Positions 1,726 through 33,263 of a stretch of 34,467 nucleotides of DNA are shown here, piece by piece. Every line of letters starts with the position of its first letter. Position 1 is the first letter of the stretch. The translations under genes were made by a program, and so were the position numbers. This DNA is from a virus, in IMG/VR virus record IMGVR_UViG_3300021197_000128, positions 1 through 34,467 of that record. One strand, 5' to 3'. Below the pieces are notes generated by a model. That model saw nothing but the letters and a program-made list of their open reading frames with translations. It had not been told where the DNA came from and did no database searches.

Positions 1726-1896
1726 TTAGTTTTTTAAAATAATGCTTATGAGTAAAGCTATTGTTGTTGCAGCTGTACCGATTAGTACATTCTCTAATCT
1801 CTTTGTTCTATTAAGAAGCTCTATAAATCTTTCCTGGGAAAGCGCTGCTAGTGTATCTAGTTCAGCCTTAACAGATTGGATGCTTGGTTTAGCCAT
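1726..1896 (-). CDS. XhlA-like small membrane protein
   Basis: 56 residues. An amphipathic helix with many Glu, Arg and Leu (about 5-35, with LSQERFIELLNRTKRLENV) runs straight into a C-terminal transmembrane helix (about 38-54) ending in a single Lys-Asn. This resembles XhlA/hemolysin-type phage accessory proteins that associate with holins. The ATG at 1896 overlaps the stop of the upstream gene by one base (TAATG), which supports that it is a real gene despite its length. Confidence 0.6.
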   Translation of the reverse strand: MAKPSIQSVKAELDTLAALSQERFIELLNRTKRLENVLIGTAATTIALLISIILKN

Positions 1897-2132
1897 TAAC
1901 TTGCCTTTGTATTTTCCATAGCTTGTGTAGTTTCATCATTAGCTAAAGATGTTCTTAGCAAAGAATTAAAATGAGCTATTGCAATCTGTATTCTATCAGA
2001 TGCTTTCTTTAATTTACGAAGTTCTACCTGACATTCAGTTAGTTGTTCAATGCAATACTTTTGTTCTTCAGATAATTCTTCAGCTTTATATTCTTTATTA
2101 TCAATAAAGACCAAGTTTGTTTGTTCAGTCAT
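1896..2132 (-). CDS. Small coiled-coil protein, DUF6447-like
   Basis: 78 residues. It opens with a short beta-like segment containing DNKEYKAEELSEEQ, then a charged helix (about 22-62) with leucine spacing typical of a coiled coil. The pattern 'short strand - D/N-K-Y - LSEE - long helix' matches what I remember of the DUF6447 family in marine phages. Function unknown. Start coupled to the upstream stop by TAATG. Confidence 0.5.
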   Translation of the reverse strand: MTEQTNLVFIDNKEYKAEELSEEQKYCIEQLTECQVELRKLKKASDRIQIAIAHFNSLLRTSLANDETTQAMENTKAS

Positions 2133-2305
2133 TAATCTGCTTCCTCTATTGTGTTGCCTTCAGCTACCCATTCTTGGATTGCTTGGTAGTGTCTGTTAGC
2201 GGGGTCTAGTGGTACAAACATAATTTTACCATCTATTGTAGCTTCAATATTTTCATTAGCTGTATTATCACGATTTTTTGTATATTGTGCTGACGTAATA
2301 TTCAT
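2132..2305 (-). CDS. Small conserved phage protein, unknown function
   Basis: 57 residues from the ATG at 2305. A longer in-frame ATG exists at 2320 but lies inside the preceding fibre gene, whereas the ATG at 2305 has GGAG seven bases upstream and follows the fibre stop by one base, so the shorter start is preferred. The protein contains ATIDGKIMFVPLDPANRHYQ, a pattern (strand, basic turn, VPLDPAN, then a helix ending in acidic residues) seen in small proteins encoded beside phage fibre genes. Function unknown. Confidence 0.6.
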   Translation of the reverse strand: MNITSAQYTKNRDNTANENIEATIDGKIMFVPLDPANRHYQAIQEWVAEGNTIEEAD

Positions 2306-2306
2306 A

Positions 2307-3350
2307 TTATAACTCCGCATCTGCTGTATAGTGTGCTTGGACTAAACCTGCCGCTGTTCCAGTAGTTGAAATAATTTCCAATCCTCTTGATGATAAATTA
2401 GATGTATTAACACTTGAATTATGATACCTTGCAGTACCTGCCGCTAATCTAGTGCATTTACCTGAGTTACCAGAATAATCATAAATAGTCATAGTTGGTA
2501 TTGCTCTCATAATTTTTTCAAAATTTACTGTTCCTTCAATGTAGCCAGTTGTGGTTGCACCATTAGGACCACCAGTACTCCAACCTGCTAGTTGTGTTGA
2601 AGCACCAACAGCGGTTGCATATTCAAAAGATTTTTGGTAATACCTTTTACACAAATCATGCTCTTCCCCAAATGACCTATGCTGAAAAGGAGTAGCAACC
2701 GAACCCTCTTGTAACATTACTCCAGTAACACCCATAGTAAATGTACTTGTACCAGAGCATAAAATATTAAGTGAAAGACCATTTAATCCCCCTGATGGTA
2801 CAGTATATGATGCTGTGTATTTTACCCAATCAGATGTTAGATTACCTAAGTTTGTTTCTGTTATTGTTGTAGTTGCTCCAAAATTATCTGCACTATTAGC
2901 GTGTTGTAAACTAGCAAATAAGGTTGTTGCATTAGATATATTTTTTGCAAAAAAACTAGCTGTAACAACTTTGCCTGACAAATGTTGTACGTTTTTACTT
3001 TCAATTTTTTGTGATATTATTGGATTACCTGATGTAGCACTAACAGTAATAGCAGTTGGAAATTGAGTTGGTGTACTACTTGTTATTACAGCAGAAGCAC
3101 TACAACCTGACAATGTAAATCTATCAACAAAATATCCTGATGTAACTCCTGACGTAGCACCTCTTTGATTTATAGCCATATTTCCATTTAAAATCATGTT
3201 GTTAACTGCAAACTGACCACTATTCAAACTAGATGCAGTAATATCTCCAGTTAATGTGGCACTTGTTCCAGTTAAAGCACCACTAACATCTAATGTGCCA
3301 CTGATATTAGCATCAGTAAGAATTTTGGATATGTCTTTTGCTCTAGTCAT
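2307..3350 (-). CDS. Second tail fibre or adhesin protein
   Basis: 347 residues. The N-terminus (1-50) consists of short Gly/Thr/Ser-rich LTG- and ITA-type repeats, then VNNMILNGNMAINQRG, a signature familiar from marine phage fibres, a beta-rich middle resembling a carbohydrate-binding fold (about 75-220) and LQEGSVATPFQHRSFGEE near 225-240, followed by a variable C-terminal domain. It lacks the T7 gp17-type N-terminal anchor found in the upstream fibre, so it may attach to that fibre or be a separate receptor-binding unit. An AGAGG element precedes the ATG. Confidence 0.7.
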   Translation of the reverse strand: MTRAKDISKILTDANISGTLDVSGALTGTSATLTGDITASSLNSGQFAVNNMILNGNMAINQRGATSGVTSGYFVDRFTLSGCSASAVITSSTPTQFPTAITVSATSGNPIISQKIESKNVQHLSGKVVTASFFAKNISNATTLFASLQHANSADNFGATTTITETNLGNLTSDWVKYTASYTVPSGGLNGLSLNILCSGTSTFTMGVTGVMLQEGSVATPFQHRSFGEEHDLCKRYYQKSFEYATAVGASTQLAGWSTGGPNGATTTGYIEGTVNFEKIMRAIPTMTIYDYSGNSGKCTRLAAGTARYHNSSVNTSNLSSRGLEIISTTGTAAGLVQAHYTADAEL

Positions 3351-3352
3351 TG

Positions 3353-3700
3353 TTAGACCTCTTGGCTTTCCACGAATGTTTTGTAATTAGCTTTGACTGT
3401 ATCTGTCCAAACTGCATTGGCTACTGCTTGTACTTCGGTAGCTTCTGAACTTATGTCGGTGTCTGTGTGTGTCCACTGTTTTTTACCATTTGAATCTAAA
3501 TCAGGCTCTGCTACACCACCATTAACATCAACTTCTTTTGTTTTGTAAGCAGATAAAAAGGGTTGCAGACTGTGTCTATTCCTTGACCTACTAATCTCTG
3601 TGCCATCTTCTTTGATGACTGTATCAGTTGCAATCTGAATTGTCTTAAAATCACCTACAACTTCTATTTTTGCTATTATTGCTTCTTTTGTTATTGCCAT
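3353..3700 (-). CDS. Conserved phage protein between the two fibre genes
   Basis: 115 residues, soluble. The N-terminal part has alternating hydrophobic residues (strands) with IKEDGTEISRSRNRH; the C-terminal part is helical and ends in TVKANYKTFVES. Proteins of this form often lie beside tail fibre genes in marine podoviruses; roles as fibre chaperone or minor tail part are possible but unproven. AGGAG lies seven bases upstream of the ATG, a strong ribosome binding site. Confidence 0.6.
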   Translation of the reverse strand: MAITKEAIIAKIEVVGDFKTIQIATDTVIKEDGTEISRSRNRHSLQPFLSAYKTKEVDVNGGVAEPDLDSNGKKQWTHTDTDISSEATEVQAVANAVWTDTVKANYKTFVESQEV

Positions 3701-3710
3701 TTTTTTTCTC

Positions 3711-6488
3711 CTAAGAATCTGTTTGATAGCTACCTGAAATCATAATATATAAGCCACTTCCGTTTACAAATGTAGGACCATTAACTGAATTTTCTGTCAC
3801 CCAATTTCCAGTAGTACCGTTTATTGCTATATAACCACCACTACTATTCTGTATTGCAGTTCCATGAACATAATGAAAAAGTCCATATTGCAGACCGTTG
3901 TTTGATGCTTGAAAAGGTAAACCAGAAAACCCTGCTACTCCTGAAGCATTAGCTATATCAAATTGACCAGAATACCAATTAAAGAATACTTGTTGCCCAA
4001 TTTTGGTATAATAAGCAGTTGTATCAAGACCTCCAACATTGCACCCAGTTAAAGCTATTGTGAACGTGCCTTCTTCATAATCGTCTAAAAGTTCATGGGA
4101 TGTACCACTAACATTTCCAGTAGCACTAAAATCTATACCATGACCACTTGCAACTACAAGGTTGCCATCAGTTAGGGTTAGTCCATTGGCTACTGTTGCA
4201 GAACCATCTCCTTTTACAAGAAATAATTGAGTTCCCCCATCATGGGTTTTACATCTGAGTGCTTGGTCTGTTGAATTACTACCAGCATGAATATCTACTC
4301 CATATGACCGACTGTCTGTTGCTTCTCTGTTGTAGAATTTAGCTACATATATATCATCTCCAGATACCCCAGTACCATCAGTAGATGTTTCAACATGAAA
4401 AACTGCTGCACTTGGGTCAAGCCCTATTCCAACTTGATTATTTCCACCATTTATAAAAAACATATTTGCTGAATCGTTTGATTCAACTCTTAAGTCTACA
4501 TCAGCACTATCTTCATTAAAGACTGCACCACCTTTTGCAGATAAAGCACCAGTAGTAACAGCACCAGTCGTTGTAATCGTAGATGAGCCAGTATCGATAG
4601 AACCAAATCCACTGGTTATTGATCCTGAGTTTAATGCACCAGTAGATACAATGTTCGATACACTAAATGTTCCAAAAGCAACAATGTCAACCTCATCACC
4701 ATCAGCCAAAGCACTGGCAAAAGTAACTGTATCTCCACTTGTAATGGTAATGTCTGCTGTAGACATACGAACACCATTTACATATACATCACAAAACCCA
4801 GCATCATATGCCAAAGTATTACCATTAGCATCACTACCAGTTACACTTGTTACTGCACTACCTATATCATAGTGAAATCTTGCTGAAGTACCATTGACAG
4901 TAGAACCAGCTGCCGCCCAACCACTTGACTTGTAAACTTTTAATTCGTTAGCTGTTGTATCAAAGTATAGATCACCAACGTCTAAAGAACTAGATGGAGC
5001 AGAGCTTGCTACTCTATATCTATCTGCAAAACTGTTAACTCCAGATACATTAGTGGCTACTGTAGCTATATTAGTAACAACTCCAGAAGCACCTAATGTA
5101 GCCATGTTAGTTACGTTAGCTGAAGTAGCTAACAAACCCATATCTTCTATAACAGCAGTCGTTGCTAAAAGACCCATATCTTCTACTACTGCTGCTGTAC
5201 CTAACAATCCCATATCAGTAACTACTGCACTTGTGCCTAATAATCCCATTGCAGTTACGTTAGCAGACGTTCCTAGCAATCCCATTGCTGTAACATTAGC
5301 ACTTGTTGCTAATAAATTCATGTCTGTAACAATATCACTTGTAGCTAGTGTATTAAGATCAGCAATAATATCGCTTGTTGCAAGTGTTGCCATGTTTGTA
5401 ACATTATCAGACGTAGCCAATATACCCATATCTGTAATAACAGCACTTGCAGCCAAGGCAGAAATATTTGAGTTTGCACCAGCAACAGTATTAATGTTTG
5501 TTTGTTCTGAGCTTGTTGGTTTTATATCTTCCCAGGCAGATCCATTGTAAACCTTTAAACCAGAACCATCTGTCTTGAAGTACAAATCTCCAGCATCTAA
5601 ATTTGATGATGGATCAGAACTAGCTGCTCCGTGATATTGTCTTTGGAATGTTGTAAGCGTTGTTGCGGCATTGGATGCGCTTGTTAATGCTTCACTAGCT
5701 TTGGTTGTTGCGGTACTAGCACTTGAAGAAGCTTCACTAGCTTTCGTTGTTGCAGTCGTTGCAGAAGCCGCTGCTGATACAGCATCTACTAATAATTCAA
5801 AATGATCTGTGTCTGTTAGCGCATCACCTATTACTGAATCTGCTACACATATATATATGTTGTTTAGTTGTGCTGTGGTTGTAGCTTTGATTATATCTCT
5901 TTGAACAAATGCAGCTGTAGTTGTTGTTGCGCTATCACCTTTAAATGTTCCTAGTTCTTGTGTAACCGATAGCTCACCAGAACTATCAAATGCCAGGATC
6001 TTACTAGCTCTATCTGTTGCGCTAGTTGTAAATTCTGGTGAAGTCATAGTATTTGTTTTAGATAACTTAATAGTTCTATCGACTTCTTCTTGTAACTCTT
6101 GAGTTATAAAAGTTAATCTATCTAAAGCATCTTCATGGGATGTACTAGGAAATGGATCATTCTCAACATAGTCTGTTCCCTGGGATTTTGCCAAGGTCCT
6201 TAATATAACTACAGTTTCGCCATTAGCTGGTCTTTGATCTGTGGATGAAAAATGTGCATCTGAAGATGAGCCAGTATTAAACTTAAATAAAACATTACCG
6301 CCACTATCTGAACCAGCATTAGTTACAACATAATGTGTATTCAGTGTTTTAGTTGTTTCACCACCAGTTGCAGATCTTACGATAACAGTCAAATCAGCAT
6401 CAGCAAATATCTTAAATCCATAGGCAAAGCTATGTAGCGTACCATTTGCTGAATACGAATTTTTTGTGGTCGTTGTCGAAACTGTCAT
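3711..6488 (-). CDS. Tail fibre protein with T7 gp17-like N-terminal anchor
   Basis: 925 residues. Residues 1-150 match the T7 tail-fibre N-terminal domain (TLHSFAYGFKIF, DADLTVIV, DYVENDPFPSTSHEDALDRL), which attaches the fibre to the tail. Next come an Ala/Ser/Thr-rich helical stretch (about 235-275), a module with DAGDLYFKTDGSGLKVYNG, about eleven 12-residue repeats (type LLGTSANVTAMG), a second copy of the GDLYF module (LDVGDLYFDTTANELKVYKS), a beta-rich shaft, and a C-terminal domain starting LLDDYEEGTFT. The start overlaps the upstream stop as ATGA. The C-terminus probably contacts the receptor. Confidence 0.9.
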   Translation of the reverse strand: MTVSTTTTKNSYSANGTLHSFAYGFKIFADADLTVIVRSATGGETTKTLNTHYVVTNAGSDSGGNVLFKFNTGSSSDAHFSSTDQRPANGETVVILRTLAKSQGTDYVENDPFPSTSHEDALDRLTFITQELQEEVDRTIKLSKTNTMTSPEFTTSATDRASKILAFDSSGELSVTQELGTFKGDSATTTTAAFVQRDIIKATTTAQLNNIYICVADSVIGDALTDTDHFELLVDAVSAAASATTATTKASEASSSASTATTKASEALTSASNAATTLTTFQRQYHGAASSDPSSNLDAGDLYFKTDGSGLKVYNGSAWEDIKPTSSEQTNINTVAGANSNISALAASAVITDMGILATSDNVTNMATLATSDIIADLNTLATSDIVTDMNLLATSANVTAMGLLGTSANVTAMGLLGTSAVVTDMGLLGTAAVVEDMGLLATTAVIEDMGLLATSANVTNMATLGASGVVTNIATVATNVSGVNSFADRYRVASSAPSSSLDVGDLYFDTTANELKVYKSSGWAAAGSTVNGTSARFHYDIGSAVTSVTGSDANGNTLAYDAGFCDVYVNGVRMSTADITITSGDTVTFASALADGDEVDIVAFGTFSVSNIVSTGALNSGSITSGFGSIDTGSSTITTTGAVTTGALSAKGGAVFNEDSADVDLRVESNDSANMFFINGGNNQVGIGLDPSAAVFHVETSTDGTGVSGDDIYVAKFYNREATDSRSYGVDIHAGSNSTDQALRCKTHDGGTQLFLVKGDGSATVANGLTLTDGNLVVASGHGIDFSATGNVSGTSHELLDDYEEGTFTIALTGCNVGGLDTTAYYTKIGQQVFFNWYSGQFDIANASGVAGFSGLPFQASNNGLQYGLFHYVHGTAIQNSSGGYIAINGTTGNWVTENSVNGPTFVNGSGLYIMISGSYQTDS
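5038..5475 (-). repeat. 36-bp coding repeat array in the tail fibre gene
   Basis: About eleven tandem units of 36 bp encode 12-residue repeats of the form (L/T)LxTSxxVxxMx. Units are imperfect and degenerate at both ends; the best conserved lie in the middle (about 5190-5310). The period is a whole number of codons and the repeats are fused in frame with the fibre, so this is a structural protein repeat (probably trimeric coiled coil or beta-helix), not a CRISPR. Boundaries are approximate. Confidence 0.8.
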
Positions 6489-14615: not shown

Positions 14616-15055
14616 TATTTTATCCTCGCCATTCTATAATAATCTTGTCCGTCTGGACCATATTTGCGCATGATGCCTTCATGCTCAAACCCTAAAAATT
14701 CAGCAAATCTTTTAGCTGTAGGCCAATCAGATCTAACCCCAGCTTGTACTCTTACTAAGCCATTATCTTGAATCATATTGTCAAAATTATCTTTTATCAT
14801 TCTGATAATAGTTATTTTTTTCTGTGGCATTTTACTTGATGCAACAAACCATCCTTCGCCTACACCTTTCCATAAAGGCTGCACACCACTACTAGCTATA
14901 AGATGACCATTTTCCACAGCAGTAAATGCCATTCCTGGTACATCTAATGATTGTGCAAAATCACCAGCAACACCAAAAGACTTTCTTGCCAGGTTGTCCA
15001 TATCACCAGCAAGCAGTTCATCTAGGTGTTCTGCCTTATAATTAATTAACCTCAT
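14615..15055 (-). CDS. GNAT-fold protein, T7 gp13-like
   Basis: 146 residues with the strand/helix order of a GNAT acyltransferase: FTAVENGHLIASSGVQPLW (strands 2-3 and turn), GEGWFVAS, a helix IIRMIKDNFDNMIQ, VRVQAGVRSDWPTAKRFAEF and the closing LGFEHEGIMRKYGPDGQDYYRM. T7 gp13 (DUF2833/Phage_T7_Gp13) shares this fold and location between tail tube B and gp14. The acyl-CoA loop (Q/RxxGxG/A) is not conserved, so it may be a structural relic and not an active enzyme. ATGA-type overlap with tail tube B. Confidence 0.75.
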   Translation of the reverse strand: MRLINYKAEHLDELLAGDMDNLARKSFGVAGDFAQSLDVPGMAFTAVENGHLIASSGVQPLWKGVGEGWFVASSKMPQKKITIIRMIKDNFDNMIQDNGLVRVQAGVRSDWPTAKRFAEFLGFEHEGIMRKYGPDGQDYYRMARIK

Positions 15056-17646
15056 TGATCGAATGTTTGTAGCCTTGGGAATATTGCTAATACAGTTAAT
15101 GGTAATGGTTGATCTTGCCTTACAAATACAAAACCATCATTATCATAACCACCTCTAAACTCGACTTCCTTATCTCCAGTAAACATTCCTAGAGCTTCCG
15201 ACATATCATCTGCTGAAGATCTAAATGGTATAAGATCTAGTTCTGCTTCTGAGCTACCTACCTTAACACCTACTGATTTATATAATCTTAATGTAATATT
15301 ATTTATTCTTTTGTTCTTGCCTTGTGATGTACCTTCTGTTCCGCCAGCATCTATTCTCATAGTTTGCAATGTTGACTTATAATTAAATCCTATATGTGCT
15401 TTTTGCACTGATCTAGCCAGTGTAATACCACCAGACGATACAGTTCTGTCTGGATGTGTTGCGCCATCACCCAGGACAACAATCTTTTCACCTTCTAAAT
15501 GTGTTAGACCAGATATAGATGTTGCTGCTGTGCCGCTATATGTAAGGCCACAATCAACAAAGTAAGCATCTTTTATATCTGTACCAAACTCATAGTTACT
15601 TAAATATTCTATATACCTTACAGTTGATCCATTCACAGTTCTCTTAACAATCATATAAAGATCATCTTCATCAGCTGTGCCAGGTATTGTAGCAATAGAT
15701 TCTACAACCGCATTACCCTGGTTTGTTGTTGTAAGCCTAGTTGGATCGCTAGTTTCTATTGTTGTATACCCAGTAGTTTCTGGATCTGTTTCTGTAATTG
15801 TAACAATAGCTGCTGAAGGATTAGCCACTGTAAAATCTGGATGAGCATTTATCCTGGTAAATATATTATCAGCTGTTGTGTTGTTATTTGTATTCGGTCT
15901 AAAACCAAATGTTGTATCAGCTGGATCAGAAGAACCAGCAGCTTCACTTACAAATGTAATTGTTTCTCCATCTGTTTTAGTAACCTTTATTGTTGTACCT
16001 ACAGCTATATTTGCATAATCAGACACAGTTATTGTTGCATCACCAAACCTACCGCCTAAAATATGTTCATGCCAGGCAACTACTTGTTCTTCTCGTCTAT
16101 ATGTCATACCGACAAGAAAACCATTTGTTAGTACACACCAAATCACATTATCTGGTTCTTGTTGCCAGGCCATTTCAACAATACCAGTTTCAGTAATATG
16201 TTCTGCAAGTATCGTTAAATCTGGTGCATTATAACTATCAGTATCAAAGTTAAATACTAATTCTCGTAATTTTCTCAAAGCTCGCTGAACGAACAATGTT
16301 ACTGGTCCTACATTTATAGGCTGTATATCTGCTGTTCCATAACTCGCTTGTCGTTTTATTTGTGCATTTGTCGGACTAAGTGGCTCGGCAGATCCACTAG
16401 CAGACACAGCAAATTCACCACCACTTGTACCAACTATTAACACCCTGGATGATGCCAGGTATCTTATAACATTGACCTGGCTAGATCCTATCGTATAACT
16501 CAAAGCATCCGCAGCATTAGTGCCATCTGCAAAATCTTCAAAGTCACCAGCCACAGAAAAGAACACTGTTTGTGGTTGTGTTGTTGTTCCAGCAAACACC
16601 AGGCGTTCTTCATAAAAACTTACACACGCTGGAAAACCAGTTGTTGTAGAAAATGCTCCCAGGCTAAAATCATCATCTGCTTCTAATACACCAGCAACAG
16701 TAATTGATTGACTTGCTGCTTCATCAACAACATCTACTGAAGGTGCAAATAACATTGTATCGTCTGTTACCTGGACAAGTAATGCAGAACTATTATTGTT
16801 TGCAGACGTACCAGCTCCAGTAATGACAACCTTTTGTCCTACCTTAAAACCTTCTTTTACAAAGTTTCCAGCACTATCAACTATTCTATCATTATGTTCT
16901 AGTCCAGTAGCGCTTGGATCTCCTTCAGCAAAACTTAATGTAGTTGCCGTCATACTTGGCATCAATTCAGTTCTGCCAGCTGTGTTTTCTTGCACAGTCG
17001 CAGTTACAGTTGTTGCATTAGTAAATGCAGTTATCTTTGCAAAACCATCATGCAGCTTAACTAATCTGCCAACATCTGTTGAAGCAAATAAATCAGCACT
17101 AGCTGTTATTGTTACACTACCAGTTCTACCATTAGCCGTTAATGTTGTTGCTGTGGTATTAGGATCTTGCATAGGACCACGCCTAAAATCAACAGCTGTA
17201 ATAGTCCATGCTGTGTGGCTTGTCCTGGTTATCTTATAAACTGGATGTGATGGATGTACCAAGTACATAACATCTGCGCTTTGTGTAAACTTTATCTGTG
17301 CAACTTGAGCTGAAGTATAAACAGTTGTTACTTCTACCGCAGATCCACCACTTTCTACAGTTCCGCCATCTTTATGTATTCTAAAATATTCATTGCCAAA
17401 TTCTAATATGTAAGCTTGTTCAACATTAAATTCAAAAGGTATTAACCTTGTTGCATTAGCGCTGGCTTTTACAGTGTTCACATAGATTGTGCCTGGTCTA
17501 CGACTAGCACCACCATGAGGATGTATAGTAAAATTCTGCATGGTTTTAGAACCATTAAAATATTTACTTATATCAGTTCGGCCATCTAGCCTTGGCGATA
17601 GTTCACCAGCTGTAAAGTTATTTAAGGTTGGTGAAGCCTTGGCCAT
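15052..17646 (-). CDS. Tail tube/nozzle protein B, T7 gp12-like
   Basis: 864 residues. The N-terminus (LNNFTAGELSPRLDGR, then NFTIHPHGGASRRPGT) is the hallmark of the gp12 nozzle family, which forms the hexameric lower tail tube. Several insertions of Thr/Gly-rich beta repeats occupy the middle. The conserved segments ACVSFYEERLVFAGTTTQPQ, SRVLIVGTSGGEFAV and ERLRELVFNFDTDSY-like (here RKLRELVFNFDTDSYNAPDLT) follow in the usual order. Coupled to the tail tube A gene by TAATG. Confidence 0.9.
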   Translation of the reverse strand: MAKASPTLNNFTAGELSPRLDGRTDISKYFNGSKTMQNFTIHPHGGASRRPGTIYVNTVKASANATRLIPFEFNVEQAYILEFGNEYFRIHKDGGTVESGGSAVEVTTVYTSAQVAQIKFTQSADVMYLVHPSHPVYKITRTSHTAWTITAVDFRRGPMQDPNTTATTLTANGRTGSVTITASADLFASTDVGRLVKLHDGFAKITAFTNATTVTATVQENTAGRTELMPSMTATTLSFAEGDPSATGLEHNDRIVDSAGNFVKEGFKVGQKVVITGAGTSANNNSSALLVQVTDDTMLFAPSVDVVDEAASQSITVAGVLEADDDFSLGAFSTTTGFPACVSFYEERLVFAGTTTQPQTVFFSVAGDFEDFADGTNAADALSYTIGSSQVNVIRYLASSRVLIVGTSGGEFAVSASGSAEPLSPTNAQIKRQASYGTADIQPINVGPVTLFVQRALRKLRELVFNFDTDSYNAPDLTILAEHITETGIVEMAWQQEPDNVIWCVLTNGFLVGMTYRREEQVVAWHEHILGGRFGDATITVSDYANIAVGTTIKVTKTDGETITFVSEAAGSSDPADTTFGFRPNTNNNTTADNIFTRINAHPDFTVANPSAAIVTITETDPETTGYTTIETSDPTRLTTTNQGNAVVESIATIPGTADEDDLYMIVKRTVNGSTVRYIEYLSNYEFGTDIKDAYFVDCGLTYSGTAATSISGLTHLEGEKIVVLGDGATHPDRTVSSGGITLARSVQKAHIGFNYKSTLQTMRIDAGGTEGTSQGKNKRINNITLRLYKSVGVKVGSSEAELDLIPFRSSADDMSEALGMFTGDKEVEFRGGYDNDGFVFVRQDQPLPLTVLAIFPRLQTFDQ

Positions 17647-18776: not shown

Positions 18777-19640
18777 CTAAGCTGATTCATCACAAAGGAC
18801 AGAAACCACTTTTGCTTCTTCCATTCGTGTTGCACCAAATGTTGAACAATAAAAGACTTGAGTTGAGTAGGACTTATCTGCTCTCTCATCAATCTTTGCC
18901 ATTACGTCTTTGCCGACAGCAAGCTTCAATCCATCTTCCGCCCAGGCAAAGCAAGTTCTAATATTAGATGCTACGCTTAACCTTGTTGACATGATAAATT
19001 TGAATCCCATGAACGTATCCACCTCGCCTTGGACTAAACTTTTTATCGAATTAAAATCGCTCGAGGTGACTTGTGTAGTACCAAGTAAAGCTTCTACTTG
19101 AGCTGGAGCTACGGCAATATATCTTGGAATAGATGGATCAACAGAACCTTCATCCAAAATTTTCTTTGCACTTATTAGCTTTGCTATTGTTAGATCGGCT
19201 GATCCATGAGCAATAATATTACCAGCAACCATTGAAGTATCTGTGCTACCGCTTGATCCAGTTTTGGCTGTACCAGTTGCAGCAGTAATAATTGCATCAT
19301 CCATAGCTCTACCCATTGCCGCCGCCGCTGCTTGAGCATAAGTAGATGTAGGATCGATTAACATTCTTATTTTGTCAGCATCATCAATAAGATCTGCCCA
19401 CTCATAAGAATCCATAGTTACCATTCGTCTTGAATGAGGTGTATCAAGGATCTGTGTATCAGCGTGTCTGCTAGTTCGCTTAACAGCTGCAACACTTCCA
19501 ACTTGATCGAAAAATGCTTTCTCACCAGTTACGGATTCTTCTGATACAGAACCACGGAGCAAAGAACCTCTTTGCTGCGATAATAACTGTACGTTAGAAC
19601 TAAACTGATTAACGAAAGCTGTAGTGATTTGTGAACTCAT
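18777..19640 (-). CDS. Major capsid protein, HK97-like fold
   Basis: 287 residues. Characteristic features of the short podovirus capsid family: an N-terminal QQRGSLLRGSVSEES, DTPHSRRMVTMDSYEWADLI, then a helix DKIRMLIDPTSTYAQAAAAAMGRAMDDAI, an A-domain with RYIAVAPAQVEALLGT and SLVQGEVDTFMGFKFI, and a C-terminal ATRMEEAKVVSVLCDE strand. It follows scaffold and is headed by a GGAG site eight bases before the ATG. No N-terminal pro-domain or protease gene is evident; the separate scaffold protein takes that role. Confidence 0.9.
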   Translation of the reverse strand: MSSQITTAFVNQFSSNVQLLSQQRGSLLRGSVSEESVTGEKAFFDQVGSVAAVKRTSRHADTQILDTPHSRRMVTMDSYEWADLIDDADKIRMLIDPTSTYAQAAAAAMGRAMDDAIITAATGTAKTGSSGSTDTSMVAGNIIAHGSADLTIAKLISAKKILDEGSVDPSIPRYIAVAPAQVEALLGTTQVTSSDFNSIKSLVQGEVDTFMGFKFIMSTRLSVASNIRTCFAWAEDGLKLAVGKDVMAKIDERADKSYSTQVFYCSTFGATRMEEAKVVSVLCDESA

Positions 19641-22573: not shown

Positions 22574-23398
22574 TTATAATCCTAATAAAGTTTTTCTGCG
22601 GATAGGCGCACCACCAACAATACCTTGTGCTGATGTTAGAATTGTGCCTTTTGTTCGGCCACGCTTTCTTTCTTCTTCTTCTTCTTCATCACCAGCTCTT
22701 ACAACATCCCTTGGATTTGCAGATCCAGTTGTGTTATCTGGCTGATCTGATCCGCCGCCACTTGGCGGAATATAATCATCATTATCATCACCGCCTAAAT
22801 TATCGTCACCTTCTTCTGGTGGTTCGTATATATCCATACCGCCACCGCCAGCGCCTGGATCTCCACCAGGTTCACCGCCAATGTCCATGCCGCCATCACC
22901 TTGATTGGGATTGCCGCCCATACCTGGATCATCTGGTACTGGATCATCATCTATATCAACACCGCCTGGATCTGGATCTGTTTCTTCTGGTGTAGTTGGA
23001 TCGTCACCAACTATAGATTCATCTTCACCTATACCTTCATCCTGGTCAGTTCCATCTTCTGGTGTGTCTGATCCTGGTTGTCCAGTTTCTGGACTTCCAA
23101 TATCTGATCCACCGCCGCCGCCGCCAGGATCACCTGGTTCATTATCTTGATAACTATCGTCATCATCATCATTATCATCACCTGGGCCTGGACCTGGATC
23201 TGGACTGCTTGGTGGATCTGGATCATAGTCTGGATCTTCTTCTGGTGGATCATAACCGCCATCATCACCGCCGCCGCCGCCGCCACCGCCATCATCTCCT
23301 ATAAAACAGTATGTCGGATCGTTCCAGGGCAACATCTGGCCCAATATGTCCTTTTTTCTGTTTAGTTGGTCTATACCAATATCCAGTTCCAATTCCAT
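22574..23398 (-). CDS. Gly/Asp/Pro-rich acidic protein with TILTS...KTLLG tail
   Basis: 274 residues from the ATG at 23398; an alternative ATG at 23335 (residue 22) would cut the overlap with the acyltransferase gene from 107 to 44 bases, and neither has a well-spaced ribosome site. The middle (about 34-245) is almost only Gly, Asp, Pro, Glu and Ser with runs of up to eight Gly and several GGMDI-type segments, ending in an EEEEEE-like acidic patch and a basic RKRGRTKG. The last 25 residues (GTILTSAQGIVGG ... RKTLLGL) match the tail of the 76-residue protein encoded on the other side of the acyltransferase. The frame is confirmed by this motif. Likely a disordered minor head protein; function unknown. 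Confidence 0.7.
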   Translation of the reverse strand: MELELDIGIDQLNRKKDILGQMLPWNDPTYCFIGDDGGGGGGGGDDGGYDPPEEDPDYDPDPPSSPDPGPGPGDDNDDDDDSYQDNEPGDPGGGGGGSDIGSPETGQPGSDTPEDGTDQDEGIGEDESIVGDDPTTPEETDPDPGGVDIDDDPVPDDPGMGGNPNQGDGGMDIGGEPGGDPGAGGGGMDIYEPPEEGDDNLGGDDNDDYIPPSGGGSDQPDNTTGSANPRDVVRAGDEEEEEERKRGRTKGTILTSAQGIVGGAPIRRKTLLGL

Positions 23399-23738
23399 GT
23401 TCCTTATTAAAATATCGGACTGTATCTTTTACAATAAATGATACATGACCAAAGGGAGCAACAAACTCAGCCAGCCATAAATGATTGCCAGATTGCCACC
23501 AATCTTTCTCCATTGATGCGCCATCTCTTAGCCTGGTTAACACTTCGTCAGATACAAGCGCATACGAACAAAAGCCAACAAGCTTTTCATGTTTATTTCG
23601 CCAGTACCTATACTGATTAATCGTTAATGGTGTTTCAAAATTATCTATAAGTTTTCTTAACGTAACAGATCTGTGCAGCCGACTATGCCTTAGAAGCTCA
23701 ACAACCTCACCAAAGCTAGGACTTCTTAGTTGCACCAC
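23292..23738 (-). CDS. HlyC-like toxin-activating lysine acyltransferase
   Basis: 148 residues, GTG start. Resembles RTX toxin-activating acyltransferases (HlyC family), which move a fatty acyl group from acyl-ACP to lysine side chains. Seen: SRLHRSVTLRKLIDNF (HlyC has PLHRNW with catalytic H23; here H22), NQYRYWRNKHEKLVGFCSYALVSDE, then DWWQSGNHLWLAEFVAPFG, matching HlyC SGDRKWFIDWIAPFG. The catalytic Asp92 of HlyC is replaced by Glu91. Length is close to HlyC (170). No RTX toxin is encoded nearby; instead the gene lies between two late proteins that share a C-terminal lysine-containing tail. It overlaps both neighbours and is thus expressed with terminase and portal. Activity and substrate are inference. 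Confidence 0.75.
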   Translation of the reverse strand: MVQLRSPSFGEVVELLRHSRLHRSVTLRKLIDNFETPLTINQYRYWRNKHEKLVGFCSYALVSDEVLTRLRDGASMEKDWWQSGNHLWLAEFVAPFGHVSFIVKDTVRYFNKEHGIGTGYWYRPTKQKKGHIGPDVALERSDILFYRR

Positions 23739-23947: not shown

Positions 23948-25234
23948 TTACATTGCTCCTATACTATTAAATGGATTATAACTACTATCTGCAATCGCTT
24001 GTGGTGGTCTTTCAAACCCTCGGTTTTCCCTTACACCCACAGCAAAATATCTCCAGGCATCAGCCGCATGGCTGGCCCAATCATGTACTGGACTATTCCT
24101 AAATGTCCTTAATCTTTCATTATACGCTCTATGGTACTGCCTTAACGCTTCTAATCCAGCTTTGCAGTTGGCTTGGTCAAACCAGCAACGGCTGAGAATA
24201 AGCTGCGCAGCGTGTATGCCATCTTCAACAGGCAGCTTTGGTACAACCCTAAAATTAATTCCCAAATCGTATGAGATCTCACGGCGGCTCTTGCCAGAGC
24301 CAAGCTCTCTAACCTCAATATCATGCGGCGCATTGTGACTTCCATAGTAATAGCCTTTATTCGTAAGTATCTTCGCATAGTGCGGCAACCCTTCATTCCT
24401 GGCTTCATAAAAATCTATAACATGAATGGCCCTACCAACACTTTGAGTAAACCATATAGCTGTACTATCACCTATACCAAGATCCCACCAGGTATCTACC
24501 TTGTGCGCCTGGTCATAGGGAACATTCCCTATGCGCCCAGTTTCCTGGACTACTTGCAACTCTTTTCCAAAAATAGCTCCAGGCACATTAGCAACCCAGG
24601 AACATTCAAACTCTTGTTCAAACTGGTCCTCGGTCATCATCAACCTGGCAGCTTCTAATTCTTCCTTATCAACAATATCAGTTTCACTAGCCTTATAAAC
24701 TTGTGTAAACCATTCATCAGACGTTGTAGCCGCTTCATATAAATCATAAAAAGCATTATGACCTCTAGGCGTTCCAATAAAAAAGGCCCATCCCTTCCTA
24801 TCAGACAATGCTGGTCTAATTACTTCTGGAAATAAACTTTCTGGAAGATCTGCCATTTCATCCAAGACAGTTCCATCTAAGTAGATTCCACGGAGTGAAT
24901 CATAATTTTCTGCTCCTAGCAGCTGTATCCTTGCACCATTCGGCAGATCACATCTAAGCTCCGTTTCATGGAATCTAACCATAGGAACTTTACCAGCAAA
25001 CTGCTTTAGATAATCCCATGCCACAGCTTTTGCCTGGCGGTATGTAGGCGCTATATAAGCGTACCTGGGATTAGTTTGTGCATTAAGTATTGCTGCCCTC
25101 AATAAATGGTTTATAGCCATCACAGTCTTGCCAAATCGTCTGTGACACACCACAACTCCCCAGCGCTTCATTGTCAGCTCGTTATGCAGTTTTGCCTGGA
25201 GTGGTCTAGGTGAATACGGAATCTCAATGTTCAT
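23948..25234 (-). CDS. Terminase large subunit
   Basis: 428 residues. The ATPase domain shows HRRFGKT (31-37) as Walker A, PTYRQAKAVAWDYLK as the Q/adenine-type region, and TVLDE (122-126) as Walker B with catalytic E126, then FFIGTPRGHNAFYDLYE (motif III). The C-terminal nuclease domain begins at DTWWDLGIGDSTAIWF, with its first metal-binding Asp, and ends with HDWASHAADAWRYFAVG containing another. It drives DNA packaging through the portal and cuts the concatemer. It lies 254 bases downstream of terS, an unusual gap for this operon. Confidence 0.95.
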   Translation of the reverse strand: MNIEIPYSPRPLQAKLHNELTMKRWGVVVCHRRFGKTVMAINHLLRAAILNAQTNPRYAYIAPTYRQAKAVAWDYLKQFAGKVPMVRFHETELRCDLPNGARIQLLGAENYDSLRGIYLDGTVLDEMADLPESLFPEVIRPALSDRKGWAFFIGTPRGHNAFYDLYEAATTSDEWFTQVYKASETDIVDKEELEAARLMMTEDQFEQEFECSWVANVPGAIFGKELQVVQETGRIGNVPYDQAHKVDTWWDLGIGDSTAIWFTQSVGRAIHVIDFYEARNEGLPHYAKILTNKGYYYGSHNAPHDIEVRELGSGKSRREISYDLGINFRVVPKLPVEDGIHAAQLILSRCWFDQANCKAGLEALRQYHRAYNERLRTFRNSPVHDWASHAADAWRYFAVGVRENRGFERPPQAIADSSYNPFNSIGAM

Positions 25235-31615: not shown

Positions 31616-31853
31616 TAAAGCTTTATTCAGTATGCACGAAGCATCCATAATATTGTTTGGACCATGTTCGACAAGAAGCACACAGTACAATAGAACAAGA
31701 CGAATGTGTAATAATGGAGCTTTAGATTATATTGTTGATGGTGATAAAAAATATATCAAAAGAAAAACATTAGAAGATTTAATGGGATCTGAAGCATTAA
31801 ATGAAGCTCTACAAAATTTAGATAATGTAGTAGAGCTTCATCCTGGTAATTAG
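31596..31853 (+). CDS. Excisionase-like HTH protein
   Basis: 85 residues. The core (about 13-65) reads ASIILFGPCSTRSTQYNRTRRMCNNG, then IVDGDKKYIKRKTLEDLMG, like excisionase/MerR-type winged helices (helix, short turn, YI-R wing). Its end overlaps the convergent integrase gene by four bases, the right place for Xis. Start at 31596 is preferred because GGAG stands 6 bases upstream; the internal ATG at 31632 lacks a ribosome site. Probably promotes prophage excision. Confidence 0.65.
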   Translation: MVLTIYNKALFSMHEASIILFGPCSTRSTQYNRTRRMCNNGALDYIVDGDKKYIKRKTLEDLMGSEALNEALQNLDNVVELHPGN

Positions 31854-33073
31854 AAGTTAATACTATTCATGTCATCATGCAGTTTTTGTTTCTTAGCTAA
31901 GTCTGTAAGCCAATGGCCATAAACTTTTTGAGTAATATCTATACTGCTATGGCCCATGAGGTTTGATACTGTCCAAACATCATCATAATATTCAAGACAT
32001 TTACTAGCATAATAATGTCTAAGGTCATGCCATCTCATATGCTTTTCACTAATCTTAGAAACAACCTTTTGTAACTGCTCTTTCCAATGGCTTCTACCAA
32101 CCATAGTATTGTATTTAGTTCCAAAAACAAAGTGTGATCCGTCTGGTCTGCCTTTTTTAATATACAGCTCTTGCAGCTCCCTAATCAAATCACCACGAAT
32201 AGGCACAGTTCTATTAGATGTATCAGTTTTAACTTTACCAACACTATTCTTTACGACTTCATTATTTATAACAACTTTTAACTTAGCGCTTTTAGAAACT
32301 AAAACTTCAAATGTTTTAAAATTAATTTTATCCCAGGTTAAAGCTCGTTGTTCTCCAGATCTTAGACCAGTTCTGCAAGCAAACTTATAAGCAAGCTTCA
32401 TAGATTTAGGTAAATTTTGCTCAATCTCATGTATAAAATCAGTAGATAACTTTTCTAAAGGCATATCGTCATCAATAACTGGCTTCTTAAATTCAGCATC
32501 AAGCATAGGATTTTGAGCTAAACAGTTTCTACTTTTACCAAAAGCTAAAAGCTTATTCAGACATGATCTCATTTCTTTTACAGTCTTATAGCTTCTCTTA
32601 CCCCTTCTGCCGCTATTAAATAATGTAGGTAGTATGTAAGTTTCACAATGCTCAACAGTAAGATCCCTGGGCCTTAGTTCGCCAACAGATTTACCGCCAA
32701 CTTTAATTGCTAACATAGTGTCAAACTGATATTTGTATTTATCGAAATAGTCTGGCAGCGGTTTGCCACCTTTCATGTTTTTATATTCTCTATAATAAAA
32801 TGTTCTAAGAGGATCATTGTTTTTTATTCTTTGATCCCATTCATACATCATATCTTCATCTGGAAAATCACCAAGTAAATCTTTGATACTCCAGTTATCT
32901 GAGTCCTCTACTTTTTGCTTTTCTAACTTTGCAAAACTTTCAAGTTCTTTTTTAGCCTGGCTAAATGTTTCATAAAATTTAGTGCCACCACCGAAAGAAC
33001 GTAGATCTAAACGCCATGAATTTATTTTTAAACTTAACTTTTTTTTGTCTTGTTTTATATATTTCTGAATCAT
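31850..33073 (-). CDS. int: Tyrosine-type integrase
   Basis: 407 residues. The catalytic domain shows RTGLRSGEQRAL (R238), the beta-hairpin lysine VKTDTSNRTVPI (about K282), HDLRH (H349, R352), MGHSS (H375) and the nucleophile in VYGHW (Y385). The N-terminal 80 residues are a basic arm-binding-type domain followed by a SAM-like core-binding domain. It recombines the attP-like site upstream with a host tRNA gene. AAGGAG seven bases before the ATG. The promoter overlaps an operator-like inverted repeat. Confidence 0.95.
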   Translation of the reverse strand: MIQKYIKQDKKKLSLKINSWRLDLRSFGGGTKFYETFSQAKKELESFAKLEKQKVEDSDNWSIKDLLGDFPDEDMMYEWDQRIKNNDPLRTFYYREYKNMKGGKPLPDYFDKYKYQFDTMLAIKVGGKSVGELRPRDLTVEHCETYILPTLFNSGRRGKRSYKTVKEMRSCLNKLLAFGKSRNCLAQNPMLDAEFKKPVIDDDMPLEKLSTDFIHEIEQNLPKSMKLAYKFACRTGLRSGEQRALTWDKINFKTFEVLVSKSAKLKVVINNEVVKNSVGKVKTDTSNRTVPIRGDLIRELQELYIKKGRPDGSHFVFGTKYNTMVGRSHWKEQLQKVVSKISEKHMRWHDLRHYYASKCLEYYDDVWTVSNLMGHSSIDITQKVYGHWLTDLAKKQKLHDDMNSINF

Positions 33074-33239: not shown

Positions 33240-33263
33240 TGGTGATCCCTACGAGATTCGAAT
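33240..33263 (-). other. attP core: 3' end of a tRNA gene
   Basis: On the minus strand the sequence reads as the last part of a tRNA: T-loop TTCGAAT, T-stem 3' arm CTCGT, acceptor 3' arm AGGGATC, discriminator A, CCA. The bases 5' of the T-loop do not pair with the T-stem arm and no other tRNA arms follow, so it is only the tRNA end carried by the phage to restore the host gene on integration. The isotype cannot be told from this part. Confidence 0.75.

Follow-up and report, generated by a model that had tools for sequence, protein, structure and literature searches.

The marine podophage contig analysed here (the window, 34,467 bases) carries a strong, genome-wide excess of the pentamer CCWGG, which occurs 146 times where about 25 sites are expected from composition. 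The 131 sites in coding sequence compare with 46.2 ± 3.4 in 200 synonymous-codon shuffles, the highest of which reached 58, with 59–62 in codon-usage shuffles that forbid 46 avoided words, and with 54 under a null preserving protein, codon usage and codon-junction dinucleotides. Applied to two relatives (G007 and G008), this last null gives 161 against 433 observed, the z-scores of 25 for the window and 48 for the relatives relating to the null named and not to all conceivable nulls. The 4.5 kb of non-coding DNA hold 15 sites, against 2.7 by composition. Chance and codon usage are excluded as the source by the codon-shuffle and codon-junction nulls, and that the statistical preference is real is near certain. 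Ranked by enrichment, CCAGG/CCTGG stands first among 512 pentamers in seven groups of the family, the window's own and six more, whose GC content spans 0.35–0.58; in T7, HMO-2011 and one relative (L044) it ranks 511–512.

Control words lie near expectation in the coding sequence of the window (GGWCC 19/18 observed/expected, GCWGC 94/79, CTWGG and CCWAG together 98/80). An earlier note, made from the sequence alone, had claimed the excess and proposed codon-shuffled genes and CCSGG as controls. The excess proves wider than it had claimed, and the codon shuffles do not reproduce it. CCSGG shows no equal excess (count 0), but it is an unfair control and therefore uninformative, because CCGG is entirely missing (0 against 22 in coding sequence). 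A mild preference also exists for GATC, itself a frequent methylation target (164/127, z 5.9).

The window is a distant relative of the Pelagibacter phage HTVC010P, with a T7-like head-tail connector, terminase and integrase. Its nearest cultured phages are HTVC010P-type Pelagibacter podophages, with TerL identity of at most 57%, and its close relatives are metagenomic contigs only. Identities to HTVC010P of 55–57% in TerL, about 60% in the portal and 67% in the capsid, together with shared tail proteins, place it in the HTVC010P-like pelagiphage family. The tyrosine integrase gene predicts a temperate capacity, and beside it lies a sequence, TTCGAATCTCGTAGGGATCACCA, that is probably the attP core and the end of a tRNA gene; at least 10 relatives carry an identical or near-identical copy next to their integrase. 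The tRNA it resembles is possibly tRNA-Glu, to which the match is weak. The core had no exact match in 385 alphaproteobacterial genomes and none with up to one mismatch in 349 Pseudomonadota genomes; one order yielded only a different tRNA end, TTCGATTCCCCTAGGGGTCACCA. Close to its portal gene the window also encodes an HlyC-like lysine acyltransferase (23292–23738; Pfam PF02794, 1.6e-21), adjoining a Gly/Asp-rich ORF (22574–23398); no such acyltransferase was found among the relatives compared.

Table 1. Positions of the features discussed in the text.
Feature	Position	Strand	Basis
CCWGG sites, whole window	1–34467	+ (as read)	55 CCAGG, 91 CCTGG
Longest CCWGG-free stretch, tail-fibre region	1838–5531	.	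Site positions
Tail tube B-like gene	15052–17646	-	PHROG 376 tail protein, 7e-224
Major capsid gene	18777–19640	-	PHROG 3437
Terminase large subunit gene terL	23948–25234	-	Pfam Terminase_6N, 1e-13
Tyrosine integrase gene	31850–33073	-	Pfam Phage_integrase, 1.2e-17
attP-like core TTCGAATCTCGTAGGGATCACCA	33240–33262	-	Resembles tRNA gene 3' end

The gene-by-gene counts given by eye in the earlier note were accurate. The terL gene has exactly 11 CCWGG sites, where one or two had been expected, against 1.5 in codon shuffles and 2.2 when shuffling within the gene; four fall in Gln, three in Arg, three in Trp and one in Pro-Gly contexts. The tail tube B-like gene has 14 against 2.6 in codon shuffles, and the major capsid gene, said to have few, has one against 0.4. 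The excess is common to most larger genes of the window, and terL is not special; per-gene expectations indicate that the proteins of the tail-fibre region allow few sites.

The cleanest test of how synonymous positions behave is tryptophan, with its single codon TGG. Preceding codons for Ser, Pro, Thr or Ala are shifted strongly towards those ending in C (observed/expected: NCC 20/2.2, NCT 5/12.3, NCA 4/12.6, NCG 0/1.9), as they are in three relatives, G007, G008 and L095, taken together (NCC 53/8.5, NCT 19/32, NCA 6/31.5, NCG 0/5.9), while usage before T-starting codons other than TGG is normal. CATGG is low in one frame only, that in which CCWGG is its synonymous alternative (4/11.8), and normal in the remaining two (9/8.0 and 6/7.0). 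Arg, Gln, Leu and Trp contexts all show the preference, the changes falling at different places within the pentamer, and it acts site by site, about equally for transitions and transversions. From the NCx-TGG counts the odds ratio for CCWGG before Trp is about 27; a simple balance of mutation and selection would translate this into scaled selection of about 3 per site. A preference at the level of the DNA drives both synonymous and intergenic positions to CCWGG. The earlier note had remarked that the codons CTG, CAG and AGG, rare elsewhere, appear just where they complete the word. The two strings it quoted exist. Of the three codons only CTG is rare, at 64 of 780 Leu codons; CAG makes up 129 of 407 Gln codons and AGG 102 of 476 Arg codons. 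The placement itself stands for CAG: of the 36 CAG codons that precede a G and follow a codon that can have C as its last base, 35 come directly after a C.

These contexts bear on whether mutation or biased gene conversion, without any effect on fitness, could have produced the excess, for example through very-short-patch repair after cytosine deamination, a cause suggested in the earlier note. Such a bias would fit the independence of the sites, their fast turnover and the fact that a single CTWGG or CCWAG step accounts for some of the CCWGG differences among relatives, and Dcm with very-short-patch repair involves the very same word. This repair, however, acts on T:G only, its sole product being T-to-C changes (CTWGG to CCWGG), so that CTWGG and CCWAG alone would be depleted in exchange for CCWGG, whereas here they are not depleted and every synonymous alternative is, NCA and NCG before TGG as strongly as NCT. 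The CATGG frame test and the Trp-context counts together exclude both very-short-patch repair and avoidance of the alternative words. With the preference visible at different word positions in four amino acid contexts, conversion bias of any kind appears improbable.

The window also avoids some 46 words. Its coding sequence lacks CCGG, CGCG, CATCG, ACGCA, GAGGC, GACGC and 36 of the 64 palindromic hexamers, and CAGG outside CCAGG is nearly missing ([AGT]CAGG or CCTG[ACT] 16 against 149). Avoidance of this breadth is ordinary in kind, since T7 and HMO-2011 avoid words to a similar extent. That the CCWGG excess is a by-product of avoiding many restriction-like words, chiefly CAGG outside CCAGG, is very hard to credit: while such avoidance accounts for CCAG outside CCWGG (284 observed, against 294–303 in shuffles forbidding the 46 words), the same constraint yields fewer than half of the coding CCWGG sites, the NCx-TGG contexts are free of CAGG outside CCAGG, and two relatives (L025 and L040) combine a 3-fold CCWGG excess with normal VCAGG (44/45 and 124/145). 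CAGG avoidance outside CCAGG is a separate effect that does not explain CCWGG. Across the window and relatives L001–L023 there is almost no ACAGG, GCAGG or TCAGG, and the three words vary between relatives independently of one another, as would be expected were three distinct pentamer specificities avoided; a single enzyme for CAGG that spares CCAGG is for this reason unlikely.

Comparison with relatives, whose gene calls are mechanical and whose contigs are often fragments and not mutually independent, shows that the preference is switched on and off between close kin. Under our own cut-offs for the excess and neutral classes, 41 loci of the TerL family have a CCWGG excess, 42 are neutral and four (L042, L044, L045 and L047, the only ones below expectation) have no site where 10–49 are expected. 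The TerL tree requires at least 12 changes between excess and the rest, against a mean of 23.5 for shuffled labels, the exact number being soft because of borderline loci; the state is thus clustered yet labile. At equal divergence from the window, its CCWGG sites are kept in 21 of 32 cases in G007 and 25 of 33 in G008 (66–76%), whereas none of 19 shared sites is CCWGG in a relative with its own C5-methyltransferase (L096/G012). Positions that could be CCWGG but are empty in the window are occupied in G007 and G008 in 24–33%. Occupancy did not depend on the distance to the next site, and no effect of even spacing or density-dependent placement was found. A lineage-specific positive preference for CCWGG is well supported. 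One relative (L097 and L098, G014) favours CCGG (76/55), of which the window has none, as well as GATC (153/93), and in a GC-richer group (L099 and L040) GCWGC (446/276) and GGWCC (76/44) are also favoured.

A preference that is palindromic, genome-wide, set at the DNA level and independent of reading frame might be expected if a phage or host protein active in condensation, replication or packaging used CCWGG as a binding or structural site. Relatives whose TerL is 79–91% identical nevertheless have no CCWGG, neutral counts or up to a 5-fold excess, a result that makes the packaging signal suggested in the earlier note unlikely; none of 32 window genes is found in all excess genomes and only there, and five base pairs at such a density are short for a specific binder. 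We consider a binding site of this kind distinctly improbable.

Our best guess, to which we give a probability of roughly 0.35, is that host cytosine methylation at CCWGG serves as a protective self-mark. In the hosts of the excess phages a Dcm-like cytosine-5 methyltransferase would act on the word, and progeny DNA packed with 5mC would be better tolerated by a host system sensing missing methylation. Such a system would respond to the lack of methylation and not to one particular cut site, so that every added methylated site would bring a small advantage. Relatives in hosts that cut CCWGG would purge the word, and a neutral count would be expected where a relative encodes a C5 methyltransferase itself or lives in a different host; the three states within one family are consistent with such a dependence on hosts. 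DISARM, which marks self by methylation (CCWGG in class 2), is proposed as a sensor that 5mC would quiet: it is described as methylation-repressed, with 5mC DNA lowering DrmAB ATPase (PMC9142583), and its methylation of CCWGG is a reported self-mark (review PMC12926258).

We count for the methylation mark the first rank of CCAGG in seven groups, the survival of the excess in avoidance-constrained shuffles, the Trp-context and CATGG-frame results, the lack of spacing dependence, the mild GATC preference and the state of relatives with a methyltransferase. Neither the window nor any of the excess relatives searched yielded a C5 methyltransferase (PF00145), and the four records that have one, two of them nearly identical and many records being fragments, are all near neutral for CCWGG (G012 23/18, G021 60/38, L054 27/26, L058 33/35); these being predicted enzymes of unassigned specificity, the association is suggestive only. 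In two such contigs (L214 and L215, groups G012 and G021) the methyltransferase gene lies near a VRR-NUC gene and near a protein with a by-eye likeness to PAPS reductase (ISFSGGRTSG).

Several points weigh against the methylation mark. The link of DISARM and Dcm to these phages is an inference, and a version in which CCWGG shields its surroundings fails, as the avoided words find no relief beside it. Part of the GATC excess could reflect compensation for hexamers that are avoided. Restriction by the Serratia DISARM reportedly rises when plasmids carry unmethylated cognate sites, so that extra CCWGG sites would be penalised on entry. Phage lambda grows on Dcm+ E. coli and has a CCWGG deficit (61/103); with T7 (2/52) and HMO-2011 (0/50) it bears out, for the phages compared, the earlier remark that phages usually avoid this site.

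Alternatively, CCWGG may have a Chi-like role, being recognised by a host end-processing recombinase of the RecBCD or AddAB type, with dense sites protecting phage DNA ends or recruiting recombination, and with lineages that inhibit the recombinase avoiding the word. In lambdoid phages Chi is likewise over-represented in some and purged in others, at 3.1 times expectation in those without recombinases and 0–0.3 where recombinases and RecBCD inhibitors are both present (Bobay et al. 2013, PMC3784561), a two-sided pattern resembling the 2–5-fold or zero counts here, and the enrichment in non-coding DNA and on both strands fits. Chi is, however, eight bases long and asymmetric, with about 0.2 sites per kb, whereas CCWGG is a palindromic pentamer at 3–7 per kb, with no known enzyme, whose excess is established against several codon nulls. 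Known Chi sequences are asymmetric. One Chi motif does not explain why other words are favoured too, GATC among them and, in individual lineages, CCGG, GCWGC and GGWCC; an EcoRII-like enzyme would explain complete avoidance of CCWGG equally well; and the alphaproteobacterial fragments sampled show no CCWGG excess. Bacterial genomes with the largest excess of ACCWGGW over the reversed word owed it to scarce GGWCC and not to CCWGG. Of the causes suggested in the earlier note, host methylation and a recombination signal are the two leading hypotheses, and we rank the Chi-like role, which we consider rather doubtful, below the methylation mark.

Avoidance of restriction sites by phages is textbook knowledge, and restriction enzymes cut CCWGG. 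As described for prokaryotic viruses (Rusinov et al. 2018, PMC6286503), the present genomes likewise avoid CCGG, CGCG, CTGCAG, TGATCA and many more words, and some relatives purge CCWGG entirely, but in the window a classic restriction and methylation word is favoured, the opposite sign, with the coding count far above the 46–62 expected. Our literature search found no report of phages systematically accumulating such a word while sister lineages purge it. Tentatively, some phages may gain fitness by carrying more host methylation sites, host-made 5mC labelling them as self towards a methylation-sensing defence; the accumulation of sites might then be a camouflage, mirroring the avoidance of restriction sites. 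Should methylation prove to be the cause, the phages would have a passive counter-defence that can be read from sequence alone, and the host epigenomes of uncultured phages would be predictable; should CCWGG instead act like Chi, it would indicate which sequence serves as Chi in a large group of marine hosts.
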